From positions 1 through 44,138 of the forward strand of contig JAFYWY010000094.1 of assembly GCA_017546455.1 (NCBI GenBank): a stretch of DNA of 44,138 nt. Direction: 5' to 3'. Positions 1 through 38,628 of the stretch are shown one piece after another; within the stretch, counting starts at the first letter, position 1; each line of letters opens with the position of its first letter. Below the pieces are notes generated by a model that was not told the origin of the DNA, did no database searches, and was given only the letters and a program-made list of their open reading frames with translations. This DNA comes from Opitutales bacterium (GTDB taxonomy: Bacteria > Verrucomicrobiota > Verrucomicrobiia > Opitutales > UBA953). The translations under genes were made by a program, and so were the position numbers.

Positions 1-3000
1 GGGGGCGGCGTAATCAACGTGGCGCTTCTGCGTGAGGTAGCAAAGGCGGTAGTTGGTGACGGCGTCGTTGAACTTGCTGCGGCGTTCTTCGATTTGGCCT
101 TTGTAGTAGAGCGCGGCAGCATTACCGCCGAGCGGTTTCCATTCCTTGACACTGGCGATGAGATTGAGATCCGAGTAGGCTTTGCCGAGCGGATCTGAGA
201 TTTCCAATTGCGCGAGGTCGTTCTTGGGGAGATTCATGAGCGCTTTTACGCGGCCGAGGCGCAGGTCGAATTCCTTCATGTAAGCGACCTGGTTGTCGAT
301 CGCGTCATTGAAGACTTCGTAGGCCTTGCGGTAGTTCTTCTGTCTGAGGAAGATATTTCCGCAGCCCGCAAAGCCGTAGTCGGCGTAGTTGGAGCTTCGG
401 TAATTGTCCATCAGGTAGCGGTAGAACGGTTCGGCTTCCGCGTCTTTGCCCTTGTTTTCGAGGAATTCCCCGACTTTGCCCAAGATGGTCGGGCTGAGTT
501 CGTCCGGCTTGTAGCTTACGGCGATGTTTTGCAGATAGCGGTCACATTCGTCGAAGTTGCGGAGGTATTCGTAGATCGTGGCGCGAGCGTACAGGCCGCG
601 GGCGAGGCCGATCATCGTCGGCTTCTTTTCTGCCGAGGCGTGGGCGCTGTCGAGCTCAAGCAGGGCGAGCATTTCTTCCGCAGCCTTGGCCGGCGTGTAG
701 TCGTTCGGGACGCTCGTCTTGACCGGGACACCGGATTCGTCGGTGATGAACACCGTCTTTTTCTTGCGCTTGGTTTCGTAGGCGAGTGTCTGTGCGAGCT
801 GGTTAATCAGCTCTTCGACGTTGTCCTGTGTGGGATCGTTGAAGTTTTTCAGGATGGCGCCGGCGAGAATCTTCTTGGAGTTCTGCTTGGCTTCCAAGTG
901 TTCGGCTTCACCCTTGGCGCGTGCCGCACGTTCCGTGTACTGAATCTTCTTGTTCAGGTACATGAGGGCCTGAGGCGCATCCGGGTCGCGGTCGTAAAGT
1001 GCATTGTAAACGTCGAGCAGGCGTTCCCATTCGCCGCGTTGCGGGAGGTGTTTGTCGATTTCTCCGAGGGCAAAGTCCAAGGTCGTTGCGTTGCTTCCGG
1101 AGGTCTTCGCGGCGATGATGTAGGCGCGAATCATGTTGTTGCTCGCATTTTCCTTGCGGGCGGCGTCCGCCTCGTTGAGCTTGCGTTGGCCTTTGCCGGG
1201 GCGAATGCTTTCGGCGATGCGCTTGTAGGCGTCACCCAGGAGCGTGTAGATTTCCGGGCGCTGGTAAACGAGGTTGTAGCGGACTTCGTCGATGTCTTCC
1301 GCCGAGAAGGGCAGTTGCTCGCGGAGCGGAGCGATGCGCTGTTCGTTGAGGACGTCGGCGTCGGAGTTTTGGAAGTAGTCCTTGAGCCAGTTGCGGCAAT
1401 CGACAAAGACTTCTTCAAGGTTTTCCATGTCCTTGGCTTTGTCTTTGTAGCGGGCGCCGAACTTCGTGATGGCGCGGCGGTAACGTGCGTCGGGCGAGAA
1501 ACGTCCCTTCGGGTGGTCCTTGAGGTAGGAGTCCATCGCGTCGACGGTTTCTTTGTAGAAGCCGCTGTAGAAATAGAGGAGGCCCTTACGGTACTGCATT
1601 TCTTCAACGAGGTAGTTGAAGATCGACTTGCCGCCGTAGTTCTGGATGAAGGTCTCGATGAGCTTGATGGTGTCCTGAGTCGCTTGCGTGAGCTTCGGGA
1701 CATAGCCCGGCTTGCCCATGCCTGCGACGTCTTCGGCCTTCACGCCGAGGCCCCAGGGGCAGCGGGCGAACCACGCGTTAATCGTGTACCAGTCCAATTC
1801 GCATTTCGTGGCGATTTCGAGATTCGGGACGTTCTTTTTCGCCCAGTCGAAGTTTTCGATCGCGGCTACGTAGTCGCCCCGGTCGAAAGAAATCTGTCCG
1901 AGCATGAGGGCCACTTCGCCGATTTCTTCCGCTTGCGGGTGCTTTTCGATGAAGGCTTTACACGCTTTTTGTGCGTCGGCTTCACGATGGAGGTCGCGGA
2001 GACAGCGGATGTAATAGTACGTGGACGACGTGATCTGCGCGAATTCCTTGTGGTTGTTGACGACGTCTCCGAAGGCGATATAGGCTTCCCACGGGCGGCC
2101 CAAGGAGTACAGGCAGGCGCCGATACGGAACGAAATCTGGGCGTCGTAGTCTTTATTTTCGTCGAAATTGCTTTTGAATTCTTCGAGTTCGTCGAGCTCG
2201 CCCTGCAGCTTTTCGATTTCTGCGGCCTGTGCATCATTGGGCGTTTCCGTCGTTTCGGCGATTTTGGCCTTTACGCTTTCCAGCTTTTTGCGGGCGGCGT
2301 CGATTGCGGGAGAGAAGTATTCGAGGAGGGCGCTTTTGCGGAGTACGCGCTGGTAGCGGGAGAGGGCGTCGCGGAACAATTCGCGGCTTTGTTCTTCTTC
2401 CGCATTTTCCAGATTGAGTGCCTGTTGGAAATAGCTGTCGCCGAGGCTGAGCCCCTGCATGTTCGAGCGGATGATGCTTGCCGGATCCTTGGAGCCGGAG
2501 CTGTCGATTTCCGCTTTCAGGGCTTCGGCTTCCGCGCGCTTGTTTTGTTTGAGGTAAACCTGAACGAGGCGCAACTTGGCTTCGATGGCTTCCGGCGTGT
2601 TGCCGACCCCGGCGACGAGCGTCTTGAGCAGTTGCTCGGACGTGGCCAGGGCCTTTTTAATCATTTCCGGGTCCTTCGTGGCTTCGGCCTCCTTTTGGAT
2701 GACGTCCGTACGGACGATTTCCATGCGCATCTGGTCTGTTTGCGAGAGCGAGGCCATTTTGCTGACCTTCAGAAGCTGTTCGCGGGCTTCCTTCCACTTT
2801 TCCTGCTGCATGTAGATATCGGCGAGCGAGATCTGCGAGGTCGCGATGCGGTCGTCCTTTTCTCCGGTTCCCTTCGGGTAGAGGATCGGGAAGTCGCGCA
2901 GAATGGTGGCGGCTTCGTCCCATTTTTTCAAATTGTAATAGGCGGTTGCCCGGAGGTAGTCGATGGAGGCTTTTTGGGTTTCGCTAAGACGGTCTCCGCG

Positions 3001-3207
3001 TTCGACCTTGAGCTTTTCAAGGATCTTCAGTCCGCCTTCGTAGTCCTGTTCTTGGATTTTCTTAAAGCCTTCATCGTAGCGTTGCTGCATCGTGAGCTGC
3101 TTTTCCTGAGCGAAAGATTCCGGCATGGTGGCAACGGAGCCGAGAGCGATCAGGATCGCAAGCAATGCGGCACTCGCCATAGAGAACGTGCGGGATTTTT
3201 TGTGCAT
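1..3207 (-). CDS. Large secreted TPR-repeat protein (C-terminus beyond window)
   Basis: An open frame runs from an ATG at 3207 to the left edge, 1069 codons without a stop, so the C-terminus is missing. The protein begins with a signal peptide: basic MHKKSR, a hydrophobic stretch at about 10-27 and a likely cleavage after SFAQ near residue 34. After that it is almost entirely helical, with many degenerate TPR-like pairs such as RATAYYNLKKWDEA and SLADIYMQQEKWKEA. It is probably a periplasmic scaffold; no catalytic motif is visible. In Verrucomicrobiota such proteins often sit beside ExbB/ExbD-type genes (known from general knowledge, not visible here). Residues 1-190 are nearly the same as the start of the protein at 3419-4879. 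No Shine-Dalgarno sequence precedes the start. A 1002-codon frame on the opposite strand shares its codon boundaries and is a shadow. Confidence 0.85.
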   Translation of the reverse strand, partial: MHKKSRTFSMASAALLAILIALGSVATMPESFAQEKQLTMQQRYDEGFKKIQEQDYEGGLKILEKLKVERGDRLSETQKASIDYLRATAYYNLKKWDEAATILRDFPILYPKGTGEKDDRIATSQISLADIYMQQEKWKEAREQLLKVSKMASLSQTDQMRMEIVRTDVIQKEAEATKDPEMIKKALATSEQLLKTLVAGVGNTPEAIEAKLRLVQVYLKQNKRAEAEALKAEIDSSGSKDPASIIRSNMQGLSLGDSYFQQALNLENAEEEQSRELFRDALSRYQRVLRKSALLEYFSPAIDAARKKLESVKAKIAETTETPNDAQAAEIEKLQGELDELEEFKSNFDENKDYDAQISFRIGACLYSLGRPWEAYIAFGDVVNNHKEFAQITSSTYYYIRCLRDLHREADAQKACKAFIEKHPQAEEIGEVALMLGQISFDRGDYVAAIENFDWAKKNVPNLEIATKCELDWYTINAWFARCPWGLGVKAEDVAGMGKPGYVPKLTQATQDTIKLIETFIQNYGGKSIFNYLVEEMQYRKGLLYFYSGFYKETVDAMDSYLKDHPKGRFSPDARYRRAITKFGARYKDKAKDMENLEEVFVDCRNWLKDYFQNSDADVLNEQRIAPLREQLPFSAEDIDEVRYNLVYQRPEIYTLLGDAYKRIAESIRPGKGQRKLNEADAARKENASNNMIRAYIIAAKTSGSNATTLDFALGEIDKHLPQRGEWERLLDVYNALYDRDPDAPQALMYLNKKIQYTERAARAKGEAEHLEAKQNSKKILAGAILKNFNDPTQDNVEELINQLAQTLAYETKRKKKTVFITDESGVPVKTSVPNDYTPAKAAEEMLALLELDSAHASAEKKPTMIGLARGLYARATIYEYLRNFDECDRYLQNIAVSYKPDELSPTILGKVGEFLENKGKDAEAEPFYRYLMDNYRSSNYADYGFAGCGNIFLRQKNYRKAYEVFNDAIDNQVAYMKEFDLRLGRVKALMNLPKNDLAQLEISDPLGKAYSDLNLIASVKEWKPLGGNAAALYYKGQIEERRSKFNDAVTNYRLCYLTQKRHVDYAAP

Positions 3208-3320
3208 AAAGATTAAGGGGTGTATTAGCGGGGAAGCTTCCGAAAAGTCGGACGCTGTGAATTTGTTAGCAGTGATTAAAAAGAAAAAAACTTCTTGCGA
3301 CAATTTAAAACTTTGCGGGA
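3208..3320 (-). promoter_or_regulatory. Upstream block of TPR gene, duplicated at 4880-4980
   Basis: Read on the minus strand, this block contains TTGTCGCAAGAAG, a T-rich run, TTTTTAATC, CCGACTTTTCGGAAGC and then ACACCCCTTAATCT just before the ATG. The region upstream of the next gene (4880-4980) has the same elements in the same order: TTGTCGCAAAAAG, TTTTTAATC, CCGACTTCTCGGAAGC and TACCCCTCAACC. TTGTCG followed 17-18 bases later by TTAATC could be a -35/-10 pair, and a weak -10-like TAATAC lies nearer the start. The conservation is direct observation; the promoter role is inference. Confidence 0.5.
3210..3222 (-). promoter_or_regulatory. Leader motif CACCCCTTAATCT, shared with 9445-9457
   Basis: This 13-base string ends three bases before the ATG of the long TPR gene. 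The identical 13 bases occur 11 bases before the ATG of the PA14-like gene at 9469. The chimeric gene at 3419-4879 has a related ACCCCTCAACC in the same place. It is possibly a shared regulatory or translation element. Confidence 0.4.
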
Positions 3321-3418
3321 AGGCTTTTTGCGGGCGTCGGGAAATCTTACGGATAGGCTGGTCCGTCCGGAATTTTTTCGGCTCGGAAAAGGTCTCCGCC
3401 GGCAGAGCGGCGTCCGGT

Positions 3419-4879
3419 TTAGCGAGCCGGGATACGGTAATTTTCCGAGAGGTTGTAGCGGCCGGTTTCGCTGATGCCCCATTCGGGGATGTCGTCGGAA
3501 TCCTGTAGCGAGAACATCGGGAAGTTGTTGTCGTCGTGGCGTCCTTTCTTCTGAATGCCGAGGCAGGCGCCGGCAGTCATGCCGGAGGCATCTCCGAAAG
3601 CAATCTGGATGTAGTAGCTGCGATTCGCCTTGAGCTTCAGCCAGTGTCCCTTGTAGAGCGAAGAGCGCAGCCCGGGCGAGGGAAGATTCTTTCCGTCGGT
3701 CCCGCCTTCCCCGCAGTGATTCTGCGGCTCCCAACCTTTCTGATACTTGACAGCGGGGCCGAATCCTTCGCCCGGCCAGTACGCGTAGAGCACCGTCTTG
3801 TGGTCAACGCCGACAATCATCGCGTCGTCCGCCATCCCGACGAAACGGTATTCGCCGTCTTCGGGAACCGTAAACCGACCTTCGTAATAGCAAAGCCATC
3901 CCGGAGCCTTGAAGGGGGCCTTGCCGGTCTTTTCGTCGCCGAACACGTCCGTCACGAGCTTTGCGTTCAGGGCCTGTCCGGTTTCGTTGACGATAAAGAT
4001 GCGGGTGTTGTAAAGCGTCATCGGGGCCTTGAAATAGAGATCGTCAAGCTTGCGGGACTGCCATCCGCCCGTATCCAAAATGCTCAGTGCCTTGCGGAGC
4101 AGTTTCTTGCGGCGCTTGTTGTCTCCGTCTTCTGTCGTTGCTAGTACGGTTCCCTGTTTGTCGCGCTTGAGGTCAAAGAGGCAGCCCTTCAGGGGTGAAC
4201 GTAGTCGTAGACCTGGGAAAGTGCCGCTCACGAGCCACTTCTTGCCACCGAGGCCCATTCCCTTGCCGGATCCGGAGAATCCTTCAAGGGGCGAGAGCGG
4301 CGCTATCAGTGCTTTGGTTAAGGCCTTCTTAGTTGTTTCCGGGTTACCTGTGTCTTCGGCTTCCTTTCGGATGAGGTTCGTGCGGACGATTTCCATGCAC
4401 ATTTGGTCCGTTTGCGAAAGCGAGGCCATTTTGCTGACCTTCAAAAGCTGTTCGCGTGCTTTCTCCCACCTGCCTTGCAGTGCGTAGATATCGGCGAGCA
4501 AGATTTGCGTGGCTGCGAGGCAGTTGTCTTCCTCGCCGATTCCTTTTGGGTAGAGGATCGGGAAGTTGCGCAGAATGGTGTCGGCTTCGTCCCACTTTCC
4601 CAAATTGTAATAGGCGGTTGCCCGGAGGAAGTCGATGCAGGCTTTTTGGGTTTCGCTCAGGCGGTCTCCGCGTTCAATCTTGAGTTTTTCAAGGACCTTC
4701 AGTCCGTCTTCGTAGTCCTGTTCTTGGATTTTCTTAAAGCCGTCATCGTAGCGTTGCTGCATCGTGAGCTGTTTTTCCTGAGCGAAAGATTCCGGTATTG
4801 CGGCAACGGAGCCGAGGGCGAGCAGAATTGCAAGCGATGCGAGACGGATTACAGAGCCTATACGGTATTTTCGGTGCAT
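3419..4879 (-). CDS. Chimeric secreted protein: TPR N-terminus fused to PA14-like C-terminus
   Basis: The protein has 486 residues. Residues 1-187 (signal peptide ending near SFAQ at about 34, then TPR-like helices) closely match the start of the TPR protein encoded at 1-3207, including EKQLTMQQRYD and REQLLKVSKMASLSQTDQM. From about residue 204 (GSGKGMG) to the end it matches the C-terminal half of the protein at 9469-10812, for example KGCLFDLKRDKQGTVLAT, FTVPEDGEYRFVGMADDAM and DDIPEWGIS. The second half has the features of a PA14-like beta-sandwich. The join lies at about 4270-4318. The fusion lacks the membrane anchor of the 9469 protein and has gained a cleavable signal, so the PA14-like domain should be released into the periplasm or beyond. 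Residues 211-231 differ most from the 9469 protein and may hold small compensating shifts. The frame is intact with no premature stop. Its function is unknown. Confidence 0.85.
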   Translation of the reverse strand: MHRKYRIGSVIRLASLAILLALGSVAAIPESFAQEKQLTMQQRYDDGFKKIQEQDYEDGLKVLEKLKIERGDRLSETQKACIDFLRATAYYNLGKWDEADTILRNFPILYPKGIGEEDNCLAATQILLADIYALQGRWEKAREQLLKVSKMASLSQTDQMCMEIVRTNLIRKEAEDTGNPETTKKALTKALIAPLSPLEGFSGSGKGMGLGGKKWLVSGTFPGLRLRSPLKGCLFDLKRDKQGTVLATTEDGDNKRRKKLLRKALSILDTGGWQSRKLDDLYFKAPMTLYNTRIFIVNETGQALNAKLVTDVFGDEKTGKAPFKAPGWLCYYEGRFTVPEDGEYRFVGMADDAMIVGVDHKTVLYAYWPGEGFGPAVKYQKGWEPQNHCGEGGTDGKNLPSPGLRSSLYKGHWLKLKANRSYYIQIAFGDASGMTAGACLGIQKKGRHDDNNFPMFSLQDSDDIPEWGISETGRYNLSENYRIPAR

Positions 4880-4980
4880 GGCGGTTGAGGGGTATGTTAT
4901 AACGGAACGCTTCCGAGAAGTCGGATGCCGTGGGTTTTCCTCAACGATTAAAAAGAAAAAACTTTTTGCGACAATCTAAA
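4880..4980 (-). repeat. Second copy of the TPR-gene upstream block
   Basis: This is the diverged copy of 3208-3320 and lies directly upstream of the chimeric gene. The conserved elements are GATTAAAAAGAAAAAA, TTGCGACAAT and TAAAACTTTG (plus-strand reading). The duplicated unit therefore covers about 100 bases of upstream DNA plus roughly the first 187 codons. Confidence 0.65.
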
Positions 4981-5009
4981 ACTTTGACGAAAAAGCTTTT
5001 CGGGGCCGC

Positions 5010-5720
5010 TCAGAAGCGGTAACAGCAACCGAATTCGACGGCATGCGCGGCCGTCTCGATTTCGCCCCAGTTGACGGCGGTCGAGAGGAGCGAGTTGCCT
5101 ACATAAAGAAAGCGGTAAGCCGCATAAACGCTGAAATTTTTGTTCAGCATGAATTCGGCGTAGGGTTTGAACGAAAGTACCGTGTTCATCGTTCCGCTTG
5201 TGTCCGAACTGCCGTCGGCGAAATCCTTTTCGATTTGGGAGGCACCAATCAGGCCGTATCCCCAGAGCGCGCCTAAGGCGAAGTTGGGCGTGAAGTCGTA
5301 AGCGAAGCCTGCGGACAGCATCAGGTTGGCGGTGGTGAGCTCGGTGCGCTCGCCGTTGCGGCTGGCGTCTGCCGAGAACGCGAGCATTTCGCCGCCGATG
5401 AGAAATTTGAAGTCCGGCGTATCCGAGTTGGCTTGCACGAGGATGGCAGCGTTAATCCCGCGGCCGTCGCCGCCGGAAAGGTCGCTGTGAAGGCCGAAAA
5501 TCAGGGACGGAGCCAAGGTCAGGCGCAGCGTGCTTTCCCGCGGACCGTCGTCAAAGGCTTCCTTGGCCTTGGCTCGACGTTCGTCTCCGCCGCGTCGGAT
5601 AGCTTGTTCGGCGTCGTAATTCGGGTCAATGTTGCCGAGGCGCCCGGAGCTATCGGCGCCCATAGCGGGGACGGCGATTCCGAAGACAAGGAGGAGGGAA
5701 AAGAGTGCTGAAAATTTCAT
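5010..5720 (-). CDS. Small outer membrane beta-barrel protein
   Basis: The start at 5720 (MKFSALFSLLLVFG) was chosen because it begins a clear signal peptide cleaved after AMGA; the 19 codons before it lack signal character. The mature part, about 215 residues, has alternating hydrophobic strands with glycine and aromatic residues (LSAGFAYDFTPNFALGALWG, FSVYAAYRFLYVG) and ends in a C-terminal phenylalanine (CCYRF), the usual signal for outer membrane insertion. It resembles the 8-stranded OmpA/OmpW-like barrels in size. No specific family is recognised. It lies 84 bases downstream of the MFS gene on the same strand, so the two may be co-transcribed. Confidence 0.7.
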   Translation of the reverse strand: MKFSALFSLLLVFGIAVPAMGADSSGRLGNIDPNYDAEQAIRRGGDERRAKAKEAFDDGPRESTLRLTLAPSLIFGLHSDLSGGDGRGINAAILVQANSDTPDFKFLIGGEMLAFSADASRNGERTELTTANLMLSAGFAYDFTPNFALGALWGYGLIGASQIEKDFADGSSDTSGTMNTVLSFKPYAEFMLNKNFSVYAAYRFLYVGNSLLSTAVNWGEIETAAHAVEFGCCYRF

Positions 5721-5804
5721 GGAAAAACGGTTAAAGCGGGAAAGCCTAAAGATAAAAACTTCACGCTTAAAGACCAAAACCCGCGGAGAGCCTGTTTCGG
5801 AGGC

Positions 5805-9468: not shown

Positions 9469-10812
9469 ATGCAAGAAGAACAAGAACTCGAACAGACGCC
9501 CGTTGCGGAAGAAGCTCCCGTCCTGGAGGCTCCGAATGTAGAGCCGGAAGACGACAGCCGGAGTACGGACCCGCTGAAGCGCCGCAATAAAAAGTTTTCA
9601 TGGCGCGATTTCGGCGGCCCCGGCTTTATTTTCTCCCTCGTATTTCACGGGATTTTGCTGGTTATCGCTATTTTCCTTGTGGTACGCCACATCGTGACGC
9701 CGAAGGTTGACGAACCGGATGCGTTCGTTACCGGTGCCGGCGGCGGTAACAACGGAGACCGCGCGAGCATGCAGGAACACCGCATGAAACCGCGTCAGAA
9801 CATGATGCAGTCCAAGGCGCGCATTACTTCCAAGTCTTCCAACTCGACGATCGCTCTTCCGGAAATGCCGGCGGTGGCGATGAGCTCGTCTTTCTCTTCG
9901 GGGATGAGCGCCGGCGGAGATTCCTCCGGGTTCGGCGGCGGCACCGGCGGCGGTGTCGGTACCGGCAAGGGCATGGGCGTCGGGAACGGAAAGAACTTCG
10001 TTTCCCCGTTCGGGACCCGTAGCGGCGGGAATCGCGTGATGAAGGGCTACCTCTTCGACCTCAAGCGCGGCAAGCAGGGAACCGTTTTGGCAACGATTGA
10101 AGGCGGAGACCAGGCTCGCCGTAAAGAACAGCTCCATAAGGCGCTTGGCGTCTTGGATACGGGCGGATGGCAGGTGCGCAAGCTCCAGGACCTTTATTTC
10201 CAAGCCCCGACGACGCTTTACAACACCCGCATCTTCATCGTCAACGAAACTGGGCAGGCGTTGAATGCAAATCTTGCGACGGACGCGTTTGCCGACGAAA
10301 AGACCGGCAAGGCGCCTTTCAAGGCTCCGGGATGGCTCTGCTACTATGAAGGTAAGTTTACGGTTCCCGAAGACGGCGAATACCGCTTTGTCGGCATGGG
10401 CGACGACGCGATGATTGTCGGCGTCGACCGTAAAACGGTGCTCTACGCGTACTGGCCGGGCGAAGGTCACGGCCCCGCCGTTAGATACCAGAAGGAGTGG
10501 GAGCCGAAAAACCACTGCGGTAAGGGCGGTGAAGACGGTAAGAATCTTGCCAATCGCGGTCAGCGTACGTCCCTCTACAAGGGGCATTGGCTGCGCCTCA
10601 AGGCGAAGAGAACTTACACGATTCACGTCGCTTTCGGTGAAGCAGCCGGCGGTCTTGCCGGGGCCTGCCTCGGTATCCAGAAGAAGGGCCGCGACAACGA
10701 CAACAACTTCCCGATGTTCTCGCTGCAAGGTTCCGACGACATCCCCGAATGGGGCATTTCCGGAACCGGCCGTTACAACCTCTCGGAAAATTACCAGATT
10801 CCGGGTCGTTAA
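9469..10812 (+). CDS. Membrane-anchored protein with PA14-like C-terminal domain
   Basis: The protein has 447 residues. An acidic cytoplasmic N-terminus (1-40) leads to one membrane helix at about 52-73 (SLVFHGILLVIAIFLVV), whose SLVFHG start resembles the anchors of TonB-like proteins. A low-complexity linker rich in Gly, Ser and Met (85-175, with GFGGGTGGGVGTGKGMG) follows. Residues 190-447 form the globular part shared with the protein at 3419-4879. It includes PGWLCYYEGKFTVPEDGEYRFVGMGDDAMIVG, split here only by position (288-319), which resembles the PA14 beta-sandwich seen in carbohydrate-binding and secreted proteins. The topology should be N-in with the domain in the periplasm. Its substrate or partner is unknown. 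A short leader with a CATAAT box and the CACCCCTTAATCT motif precedes the ATG; a strong terminator follows. Confidence 0.8.
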   Translation: MQEEQELEQTPVAEEAPVLEAPNVEPEDDSRSTDPLKRRNKKFSWRDFGGPGFIFSLVFHGILLVIAIFLVVRHIVTPKVDEPDAFVTGAGGGNNGDRASMQEHRMKPRQNMMQSKARITSKSSNSTIALPEMPAVAMSSSFSSGMSAGGDSSGFGGGTGGGVGTGKGMGVGNGKNFVSPFGTRSGGNRVMKGYLFDLKRGKQGTVLATIEGGDQARRKEQLHKALGVLDTGGWQVRKLQDLYFQAPTTLYNTRIFIVNETGQALNANLATDAFADEKTGKAPFKAPGWLCYYEGKFTVPEDGEYRFVGMGDDAMIVGVDRKTVLYAYWPGEGHGPAVRYQKEWEPKNHCGKGGEDGKNLANRGQRTSLYKGHWLRLKAKRTYTIHVAFGEAAGGLAGACLGIQKKGRDNDNNFPMFSLQGSDDIPEWGISGTGRYNLSENYQIPGR

Positions 10813-17917: not shown

Positions 17918-17961
17918 AAAAAATCGGAGCTCCCCTTTGAAACGGGAACTCCGATTTTTTT
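17918..17961. terminator. Strong terminator between the efflux and glycan operons
   Basis: AAAAAATCGGAGCTCCC and GGGAACTCCGATTTTTTT form a long stem with a nine-base loop. A and T runs on either side allow termination of the efflux operon (plus) and the glycan operon (minus), which converge here. Confidence 0.85.
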
Positions 17962-26811: not shown

Positions 26812-27783
26812 TTATTGGGCGAGGAATTCAATGCCGTCGAGGCGGCCCGTGAATGCGTCGCCGTTCGGCGGGCGCTGGAAGCGGCTCGGGAAAGCGAGGG
26901 CGAAGGCCTTGCGAATACATTCGCGAATCTGCGGATTGCTACTGCCTTCGATTTCGAGAAAACGGATCTCGCCGTTTTTGCCGACGGAAAACCGGGCGTT
27001 GACGCTTACCGAACTCGGAATCGAGGGCGGGTTCTGAGCGACGACGTTTTCGAAATGGACAACAAATCGGGCGCGTACGGCTTCGACGTAGGTCATGCGG
27101 GCATCGGCGACGCGCTTGCCGCCGTCGCCGCCGTTTTCGCCGGTGCCGTCGGGCCTGCCGAGGACGCTTCCGCCGCCGACTTTCACTTCGCCGATTTTGG
27201 CACCTTTGCCGTTTCCGCCGGAAGGCTTGGTGTTCCCGGAGCCGTAAAGGCCCTTGTTGCGGTTTGATTGAACGAGTTTACTGATATCGACGGTTCCGCC
27301 GGAAGGTTTTGTACCGGAAGCGTTCGGTTTGGTCGGCTGCTTGGTCGGCGCGGGAGTTTTGGGTTTCGCAGCCGCCTCTCGTGCTGCTTTTTGCCGTGCG
27401 GCTTCGGCGGCGGCCAGTTCGCGTTGGCGGCGCTCGGCTTCAGCCTGTGCCCGCTTGGCCGCTTCTTCGGCGGCGCGTTGTGCGGCAGCCGCCTCTTCTT
27501 GGGCCAGGCGTTCGTTGCTTTCGCGAATGGCGTCGAGGCGGCTTGTGTCGTTGGTCGGATCGACGATTTTCCCGCCCTGTGTTCCGCGCGCAACGCCACG
27601 TTCCCGTCCGACGAGACCGGCATCCTTGTTCGGATCTTCGCCGCCGAGCATCAGCAGAATCGGGTCGGCGTCGGAAGCGCTTACGGCTGTTTCCTCCGCT
27701 CCCGCGAACAAAAGCACGCCGAGAGCAATCGCGTGGAGGGCGACGGCGACACAAAGTCCGGGGGCTGAGAGTGAGTTGCTCAT
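26812..27783 (-). CDS. TonB/TolA-like energy-transducing protein
   Basis: The protein has 323 residues. An N-terminal membrane anchor (about 8-28, CVAVALHAIALGVLLFAG) includes the histidine typical of TonB/TolA anchors. A long Ala/Glu/Arg/Gln helix (about 88-140, with AEAERRQRELAAAEAAR) is more TolA-like. A Pro/Lys/Gly linker follows, then a small C-terminal domain with VNARFSVGKNGEIRFLEIEG, the TonB_C/TolA fold. The start codon overlaps the exbD stop (ATGA). No tolB or pal is nearby, so whether this is a TonB or a Tol system stays open. Confidence 0.8.
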   Translation of the reverse strand: MSNSLSAPGLCVAVALHAIALGVLLFAGAEETAVSASDADPILLMLGGEDPNKDAGLVGRERGVARGTQGGKIVDPTNDTSRLDAIRESNERLAQEEAAAAQRAAEEAAKRAQAEAERRQRELAAAEAARQKAAREAAAKPKTPAPTKQPTKPNASGTKPSGGTVDISKLVQSNRNKGLYGSGNTKPSGGNGKGAKIGEVKVGGGSVLGRPDGTGENGGDGGKRVADARMTYVEAVRARFVVHFENVVAQNPPSIPSSVSVNARFSVGKNGEIRFLEIEGSSNPQIRECIRKAFALAFPSRFQRPPNGDAFTGRLDGIEFLAQ

Positions 27784-28232
27784 TTCGTGTTCGGCGCGTT
27801 GTCCACTTCCGTGTCGAAAGCGACTTTGGCGAGACCGTGGCGCTTGGCGAGGTCAAAAAGTGAGATGAGCTGTTGGACCATCAGCGAGCCGTCGGCGCGG
27901 ACGCGGACGACGGGTTGCCGGTCGGCCGGGAGCTTGCTGATGCGGGAAAATTCGTCTGCGAGCTGTTCCGGCAGGAGCTGTTTGCCGTCGAGGAAGTAAA
28001 AACCGTTTTTGTCGAGGGCGACGACGGCGTACTTGGTTTCGGTTTCGATGGGTTTGCCGATCTTGTCGGAGGCGACGGGTAGGTCAATCTGCGTCGTCTG
28101 TTCGAGCATCGGCGTGGTGATCATGAAAATAATCAGCAAACAAAAACACAGGTCCAGCAAAGGCGTGACGTTGATTTCGCTCATCGCCTGGATGCGGTTT
28201 TTTCTGTGGAATGTGCGGGAACGGCGTGCCAT
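27780..28232 (-). CDS. exbD: ExbD/TolR family proton-channel protein
   Basis: The protein has 150 residues, the normal length. A short basic N-terminus leads to INVTPLLDLCFCLLIIFMI, the single helix that carries the conserved aspartate (D27 in PLLDLCF) for proton passage. A periplasmic domain follows (VRVRADGSLMVQQLISLFDLA). With ExbB it makes a proton-driven motor that powers the protein encoded next. It is spaced 10 bases from exbB and overlaps the next gene by four bases. Confidence 0.9.
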   Translation of the reverse strand: MARRSRTFHRKNRIQAMSEINVTPLLDLCFCLLIIFMITTPMLEQTTQIDLPVASDKIGKPIETETKYAVVALDKNGFYFLDGKQLLPEQLADEFSRISKLPADRQPVVRVRADGSLMVQQLISLFDLAKRHGLAKVAFDTEVDNAPNTK

Positions 28233-28242
28233 GGCGGGCCAA

Positions 28243-29073
28243 TTATTCGGCGTTCGAGTAAGGATTGATTAAGCCGTTTTGTGCGAGCGGTTTGGCGACT
28301 CTCACCGCGGAGTCCGGTCGGGCGTCGGGCGCTTCCGCAGCCGGAGTGCCGGCTTCGGCGCTTCGGAGGTTTTCGTAAAGTTCGAGCTCCATGCGATCGA
28401 GGAGCATTGAGGCGAAGGCTTCCAACTCCATCGTTCGCTGCTTTGTTTTCGTAAGGATGATGTTGTAGAAAAACACAGCGGGAATGGCGAGCAGGAGACC
28501 GGAAAGCGTAGCAACGAGTGCGCCGGAGACCCCCGGAGCGAGATCGGAGATGGTCGCTTTTTCCGAGAGTTCGCCGAACGTAACGATAATCCCCCAAACC
28601 GTTCCGAGCAGGCCGAGGAAGGGACCGCCCGCGGCAAAGGAGCTCAGCAGCACCAGGGATTTTTCGTAGGTGTTCATGATGCGGCTCATTCCGCGCTGAA
28701 CGGCATTTTCGATGTGTCGCATGCAGATATCGACATCGCTTTCCGTGCGGATGTGCTTGCCGTTTTTGGCATAGGCCTGGCAGGCTTCGATGGTGAGCAT
28801 TTCGTAGGGCGAGGCTCCCGGGTGGCGCTCCAGACGGAGCTGGGTCAGACGTGCTTTACCCACATTCAGACGGGCCTCGAAGTGGGCGTTGCCGTGGAGA
28901 AATTTCTTGAGGTCGAGAAGCTTGTTGACGATGGCCGTAACCGACCAAACCGAGAGTACGACGATGATGGCGATAACAACTTTGGCGGCGCCGTCGCATT
29001 GTTCCCAATACCAAAGTGCGCCGCGGGAAGTCTCGCCGTTTGCCAAGAAAATCGAAGAAAAAAGTGTCTGCAT
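28243..29073 (-). CDS. exbB: ExbB/TolQ family motor protein
   Basis: The protein has 276 residues from MQTLFSSIFLANG at 29073; an upstream in-frame ATG would add 33 residues without membrane or signal character. Three hydrophobic segments are visible at about 32-52, 128-150 and 173-195. The MotA/TolQ/ExbB signature is clear in LLSSFAAGGPFLGLLGTVWG and PGVSGALVATLSGLLLAIPA. Residues 240-276 form a low-complexity Ala/Pro tail. It is the first gene of the operon, divergent from the polyprenyl synthase gene across 175 bases, which should hold both promoters. No Shine-Dalgarno sequence. Confidence 0.9.
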   Translation of the reverse strand: MQTLFSSIFLANGETSRGALWYWEQCDGAAKVVIAIIVVLSVWSVTAIVNKLLDLKKFLHGNAHFEARLNVGKARLTQLRLERHPGASPYEMLTIEACQAYAKNGKHIRTESDVDICMRHIENAVQRGMSRIMNTYEKSLVLLSSFAAGGPFLGLLGTVWGIIVTFGELSEKATISDLAPGVSGALVATLSGLLLAIPAVFFYNIILTKTKQRTMELEAFASMLLDRMELELYENLRSAEAGTPAAEAPDARPDSAVRVAKPLAQNGLINPYSNAE

Positions 29074-29248
29074 AAATCGTTTTTTCAAATGATGCACAGA
29101 AAAAAAACGCGTGCAAGTTTGGACTCCGTTTTGTGAATAAAATGCTCCCGGCGTTCGGTGAAAATCAGGCACGGACGCGGGTTCCGCTGTCGTTTTCCGC
29201 GTTTCTTTCCTTGCAACCGGCTCCCGCGGATTTTATCTTTCTACGGCA

Positions 29249-34319: not shown

Positions 34320-34421
34320 TTAAAGCTTAAAGATTAGGGCTTAAAGTTTAAAGAATCGTCGAAAAATTCTTTCGTCTAAACCTCTTTCCCTCTTCTTTAA
34401 GCTCTAATCTTTAAGCTTTAA
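34320..34421. repeat. Long A+T-rich inverted repeat
   Basis: The arms at 34320-34346 and 34395-34421 are 27 bases each and differ at one position, which would be a G-U pair in RNA. The arms themselves are built from TTAAAG/CTTTAA units, and AAAGAA...TTCTTT is nested in the 48-base centre. It fills the gap between pepP and the 96-residue gene and contains no gene. It could be a miniature mobile element, a terminator-like or mRNA-processing hairpin, or a protein-binding site. Confidence 0.75.
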
Positions 34422-38588: not shown

Positions 38589-38628
38589 AAAAAAGCGTTC
38601 CCGCGAAATTTACGGGAACGCTTTTTTT
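38589..38628. terminator. Bidirectional terminator between HAD and flotillin genes
   Basis: AGCGTTCCCG and CGGGAACGCT pair perfectly around CGAAATTTA, flanked by A and T runs. It serves the HAD gene (plus) and the flotillin gene (minus). Confidence 0.9.

Follow-up and report, generated by a model that had tools for sequence, protein, structure and literature searches.

What is the gene at positions 3419-4879 of this Opitutales genome made of, when and where did it arise, and has it been kept as a gene? The window analyzed here is an entire contig (C88, 44,138 bp) of a 2.15-Mb genome assembled in 105 contigs. Two other genes in the same window, referred to here as the TPR gene and the PA14 gene, are central to the answer. 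The named relatives of the PA14 gene come from metagenome-assembled genomes (MAGs) of Opitutales/Verrucomicrobiota, several of them from animal guts and including Candidatus Spyradosoma merdigallinarum.

A chimera of two nearby genes

The open reading frame at 3419-4879 lies on the minus strand, starts with ATG and encodes 486 amino acids. A sequence-only reading had proposed that it combines parts of two neighboring envelope genes, and a blastn comparison of the window against itself bears this out. Positions 4322-5008 align with 2650-3336, the 5' end of the TPR gene (82.9% identity over 691 columns, E=0), and positions 3419-4191 align with 10812-10040, the inverted 3' end of the PA14 gene (81.4% over 773 bp, E=0), the latter match running without gaps as far as the stop codon. 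At the DNA level the two parts are homologous to two separate genes of this genome, and 3419-4879 is a chimera of two nearby cell-envelope genes. Chimeric genes that result from partial duplications are an already known evolutionary kind. At the protein level, residues 1-189 share 76% identity with the TPR protein and residues 200-486 share 78% with the PA14 protein. The features of the locus are as follows, G006 being the closest relative among the genomes compared:

1..3207, minus strand: TPR parent gene, truncated where the contig ends and completed on contig C24
3337..3418, no strand: 82 bp between the stop codon of the chimera and the upstream DNA of the TPR gene, unmatched elsewhere in the genome
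3419..4879, minus strand: chimeric gene, 486 amino acids, with predicted export signal, TPR module, linker and PA14-type domain
3419..4195, minus strand: PA14-derived half, residues 229-486 and stop codon, matching 10040-10812, with PA14 fold
4196..4315, minus strand: join and linker, residues 189-228, set by the limits of homology and disordered in the model
4316..4879, minus strand: TPR-derived half, residues 1-188, 76% amino-acid identity to the TPR parent, eight helices predicted by AlphaFold2 from residue 40 on
4880..5008, minus strand: copied DNA from upstream of the TPR gene, matching 3208-3336, 98 of 131 columns identical, 4 gap columns
5010..5777, minus strand: beta-barrel (OMP-like) gene, directly adjoining the TPR gene in G006
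9469..10812, plus strand: PA14 parent gene, with N-terminal helix, linker and PA14-type domain
9634..9648, plus strand: S-x3-H motif SLVFH, residues 56-60, in the transmembrane helix of the PA14 parent, absent from the chimera

Homology to the PA14 gene begins near 4270 (4269-4248 matches 9962-9983 at 91%) and homology to the TPR gene fades past about 4318, so that the join falls at about 4270-4318, exactly where it had been placed from the letters. Past the join, the linker (residues about 211-228) can be aligned only poorly, and its MAFFT alignment contains two 4-nt gaps of opposite sign, which suggest, as far as this alignment holds, compensating frame changes. The copied segment includes about 129 bp of DNA from upstream of the TPR gene, again as anticipated. 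The gene order is therefore beta-barrel gene, TPR upstream DNA, TPR 5' end, inverted PA14 3' end, 82 bp, TPR upstream DNA again and the whole TPR gene. For the 82 bp (3337-3418), a DNA search of the genome gave no match elsewhere above chance and none to the DNA downstream of the PA14 gene. The chimera adjoins the TPR gene in the same orientation, both on the minus strand, and the PA14 parent lies 4.6 kb away on the opposite strand.

The TPR parent is whole in this genome, contig C24 continuing it through a 320-nt overlap, and an ExbB-type gene directly follows its end there. The overlapping contig ends (window 1-320 and L090:1-320) differ at 5 positions, a sign of strain mixture, which probably broke the assembly inside the TPR gene. 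A scan of genome contigs with the full chimera gave no relatives.

Distribution and age

In G006, the beta-barrel gene stands directly upstream of the TPR gene with no chimera between them. The TPR gene there is the first of an operon that also contains ExbB and ExbD genes, and the PA14 gene comes after lysC, just as it does in the window. Since the beta-barrel and TPR genes are adjacent in G006, the chimera was most likely inserted between them. This adjacency was not seen in G003 or G007, and the order before insertion is accordingly read from G006 only.

We searched 78 other genomes of the family for the fusion architecture, defined as one protein aligning to both halves in one frame, and none was present among the matches listed (E down to about 3e-8). 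The TPR matches listed were mostly frames of about 1,100 amino acids and the PA14 matches mostly frames of about 430-520. The proposal of a local origin, which a widespread and ancient fusion would have undone, came through this search intact. The opposite history, in which the fusion came first and the parents are fragments of it, was rejected: long homologs of both parents occur throughout the genus, and across the family both types of protein turn up repeatedly.

In a maximum-likelihood tree, the PA14 half is sister to the local PA14 parent (support 100/98). Synonymous divergence (dS, Nei-Gojobori) from the parents amounts to 0.347 in the TPR half and 0.67 in the PA14 half (difference p=0.005), while the parents differ from their G006 orthologs by about 1.7-1.9, a saturated value. 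Judged by these distances, with the halves far closer to the local parents than the parents are to their orthologs, and by the search of the family, the chimera is lineage-specific and made from two local genes, in agreement with what had been supposed.

Two species pairs of the genus, G004/G005 and G002/G007, provide a scale for its age: dS is 0.28 in the TPR region and 0.48-0.59 in the PA14 region, one PA14 copy of the G002/G007 pair with a dS of 0.043 being omitted as an outlier. Because the twofold ratio between the halves is mirrored in these pairs, the difference looks regional and a single event suffices. On this scale, the age of the chimera is about 1.1-1.4 times that of the splits within the two species pairs, and its origin falls long after the divergence from G006. 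The description of the fusion as recent thus holds at the scale of the genus and fails at the scale of species.

Two further points emerged from these comparisons. Between G002 and G007, one PA14 copy shows the dS of 0.043 and the other 0.475 (L056/L060 versus L055/L059), and the near-identical copy appears to be the result of a recent interspecies transfer or conversion. In addition, dS in the TPR gene (L046-L049) is 0.28 over the first ~180 codons versus 0.48-0.53 over the entire gene, which suggests constraint on the 5' coding DNA.

Frame retention, constraint and alternative explanations

The frame is kept in both halves, as had been claimed: their 1335 nt contain neither stop codons nor indels, versus 4 gap columns in the 131 columns of the copied non-coding DNA (Fisher test, p=6e-5). 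In neutral simulations, the probability of no stop was 0.023 at 100 substitutions and 0.009 at 140. Pairwise dN/dS is 0.185 in the PA14 half, where third codon positions are the most altered, and 0.39 in the TPR half. Amino-acid changes polarized with G006 as outgroup fall mainly on the chimera rather than on the parent (20 versus 8 in the PA14 half and 21 versus 5 in the TPR half), and the chimera has evolved 2.5-4 times faster than its parents. The TPR half, with its dN/dS of 0.39 and most changes on the chimera, is thus weakly constrained. A rough dN/dS for the chimera branch, an estimate only that assumes synonymous change to be split evenly over the two branches, is near 0.26 for the PA14 half and 0.6 for the TPR half. 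Maximum-likelihood codon branch models were unstable, probably because of saturated synonymous sites in the outgroup, so the pairwise values and relative-rate counts were used instead; in one fit of that unstable set, dN/dS = 1 was not rejected for the chimera's PA14 half. Taken as a whole, these patterns of substitution indicate that purifying constraint on the chimera is present yet relaxed, more so in the TPR half, and that the frame has been retained under selection. The chimera is probably a retained gene. The earlier suggestion of possible use gains indirect support from the kept frame and the partial purifying constraint, alongside clear relaxation.

The main competing explanation is drift: the chimera would be a leftover of duplication whose frame has stayed open by chance or because selection acted briefly at the start, and it would now have little or no function. 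The faster amino-acid change speaks for it (branch lengths of 0.19 for the chimera versus 0.055 for the parent in the tree; 41 versus 13 polarized changes with the halves pooled), as does the loss of otherwise invariant residues: at 15 columns without variation among relatives, including some in the linker, the chimera has lost the residue that the parent keeps. A drifting frame would, however, have had to escape every stop codon across some 100+ substitutions (probability about 0.01-0.02), and it fits poorly with the indel-free coding halves beside the gapped non-coding copy, with the excess of third-position changes and with the low pairwise dN/dS of the PA14 half. We regard drift as unlikely, though it is the strongest of the alternatives.

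Import is improbable. The fusion could have been born in an unsampled relative and have entered the beta-barrel/TPR locus through homologous recombination; a dS of 0.35-0.67, as large as between species, would leave time in another genome, and the comparison covers one genome per species. Yet both halves are closest to the genes of this genome among the matches listed from the genomes searched, the PA14 half groups with the local gene, and the chimera adjoins its own TPR parent. A two-step origin, in which the PA14 copy came first and the TPR 5' end was duplicated later, or in which the TPR half was homogenized by gene conversion, would explain why dS is twofold lower in the TPR half than in the PA14 half, and would account for one near-identical stretch of about 85 bp. 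It is very improbable, given the same twofold ratio between orthologous regions of the species pairs and longest identical runs that are no longer than in shuffled data (p=0.16 and 0.22); as a test for gene conversion, run length was not significant. We give almost no weight to an assembly or binning artefact: the genome is a MAG in 105 contigs with some strain variation, as in the C88/C24 overlap, but the parts differ from their parents by 17-19% in DNA and keep an intact frame, neither of which a misassembly of the same genes would give, and the chimera lies 3.4 kb inside a 44-kb contig.

Predicted product

By eye, the first 34 residues of the chimera resemble an export signal, as does the start of the TPR parent, and a signal peptide with a secreted product, as proposed from the sequence, is plausible. 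AlphaFold2 predicts eight helices in the TPR half (residues 40-192), forming four hairpins that end at the join, followed by a low-confidence, disordered stretch (189-228). The PA14 half, modeled alone, reached a pTM of 0.83 with a core pLDDT of about 92; this model replaced a first one of the full chimera in which the PA14 half was poor, probably because two families were mixed in the alignment. In these models, the join sits between two complete modules.

The best structural matches of the PA14 half are PA14 sugar-binding domains (6m8m, Z 12.3). It shares its fold with the carbohydrate-binding domains of MpAFP, the RTX adhesin and the Epa/Flo adhesins (Z about 11-12), a likeness of fold alone, with 12-18% identity over aligned residues; unlike them, it is joined to a TPR module and is not part of an adhesin. 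The Pfam PA14 profile scores 28.1 bits in the chimera against a cut-off of 24, in line with the fold, and exactly at the cut-off in the parent, for which the fold evidence comes from the copy in the chimera. An adjacent pair of Asp residues, a feature linked in lectin-type PA14 domains with the calcium site, is invariant across 34 aligned sequences, the chimera included. The TPR half superposes on the TPR domain of YbgF/CpoB (PDB 2xev, target TM-score 0.84), although at about 15% identity and with a fold that is common. YbgF is a periplasmic protein associated with Tol-Pal.

The helix left behind and a putative class of force transducers

The sequence-only reading had also held that the membrane anchor of the PA14 parent was lost, and the helix region of the parent is indeed absent from the chimera, which has no motor-binding transmembrane helix. 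What had been overlooked is that this anchor carries an S-x3-H of the TonB/TolA type, found in the N-terminal helix of 24 of the 26 PA14-family proteins examined. In TonB and TolA, the Ser and His of the SHLS motif have the same S-x3-H spacing. Both residues lie in this helix as part of SHLS, the motif that binds the motor (PMC12204202). The PA14 parent has a single N-terminal helix with Ser and His; by eye, the further Leu and Ser of SHLS are not evident, and a PA14-type domain takes the place of the TonB/TolA C-terminal domain. It looks like a TonB-like force transducer with a PA14 end domain, which would be coupled to a motor on the basis of a short motif and of precedent. Its gene is not adjacent to motor genes, and its pairing with the ExbB-ExbD motor of the TPR operon is consequently a guess.

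The precedent is the set of systems described in PMC12204202, namely the periplasmic force transducers TolA and TonB, the vWA transducers of PVC bacteria and the TPR-TolQ-TolR-TolR clusters. Like the transducers, the PA14 parent has one N-terminal S-x3-H helix that a low-complexity linker connects to a globular end domain, and the TPR parent heads an ExbB/ExbD operon much as in those clusters. Unlike them, the PA14 parent ends in a PA14-type domain ('PA14' is absent from that paper) and is unlinked to motor genes here, and the chimera is without the helix altogether.

Proteins with a single S-x3-H helix and a PA14-type C-terminal domain (window 9469-10812; L011-L030 and L050-L056) often occur in several copies per genome, and it is possible that the family consists of force transducers. 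G006 has a second PA14 copy (L051:1-596), its 5' part cut by the contig start. A distant homolog in a Verrucomicrobiales MAG (L081:2645-3904) also has an S-x3-H helix (SLLLH), and the family may reach beyond the order. A literature search, with most subscription journals outside its coverage, found no report of PA14-ended transducers. This putative class is a more general lead than the chimera itself. Elsewhere in the window, a minus-strand row at 26812-29172 comprises ExbB (28243-29172), ExbD (27780-28232) and a protein that by eye is TonB/TolA-like (26812-27783).

Proposed origin and role

We propose that, in an ancestor of this lineage after its split from the closest sampled relative, one rearrangement set two copies side by side between the beta-barrel gene and the TPR gene: first one of the TPR gene's upstream DNA with its initial 188 codons, then an inverted one of the 3' part of the PA14 gene. 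The mechanism may have been template switching during replication or some comparable duplication, two switches being enough to give the observed order. The product would comprise, in frame, an export signal and four TPR-type hairpins, joined through a flexible linker to an intact PA14-fold domain, and may be expressed from the copied TPR upstream region. We hold this origin to be very probable; the fuller account of origin and retained product, leaving aside any role, is reasonably likely, if less firmly held than either the origin or the retention by itself.

Since the PA14 parent resembles a transducer and the TPR parent heads an ExbB-ExbD operon, the chimera is most likely soluble and uncoupled from the motor, a periplasmic PA14 domain if its predicted export holds. 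Such a protein might act as a passive adaptor or as a competitor at sites used by the PA14 parent, a role that we put forward tentatively and think somewhat doubtful. Far more speculative, and itself quite unlikely, is the combined idea that the chimera is a natural soluble regulator (decoy or dominant-negative) of an unrecognized ExbB-ExbD-driven envelope machine in gut Verrucomicrobiota, and that this machine uses TPR proteins together with PA14-ended S-x3-H force transducers.

The event resembles the terminal reassortment that PMC5675462, citing Stavrinides et al. 2006, describes for secreted effectors, in which the export-signal end of one gene is joined to the coding part of another; in the chimera, upstream DNA came along as well. 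It differs from the cases described there in that the chimera is no secretion-system effector, both donors are local envelope genes and the PA14 part has shed its membrane anchor. The locus offers an unusually readable birth of a bacterial gene from pieces of two opposite-strand neighbors: both parents, the copied upstream DNA, the insertion-free order in a relative and the relative age can be recovered in one case.

Outside the locus, imperfect palindromes at intergenic positions 17918-17960, 34320-34421 and 38589-38627 are probably transcription terminators.
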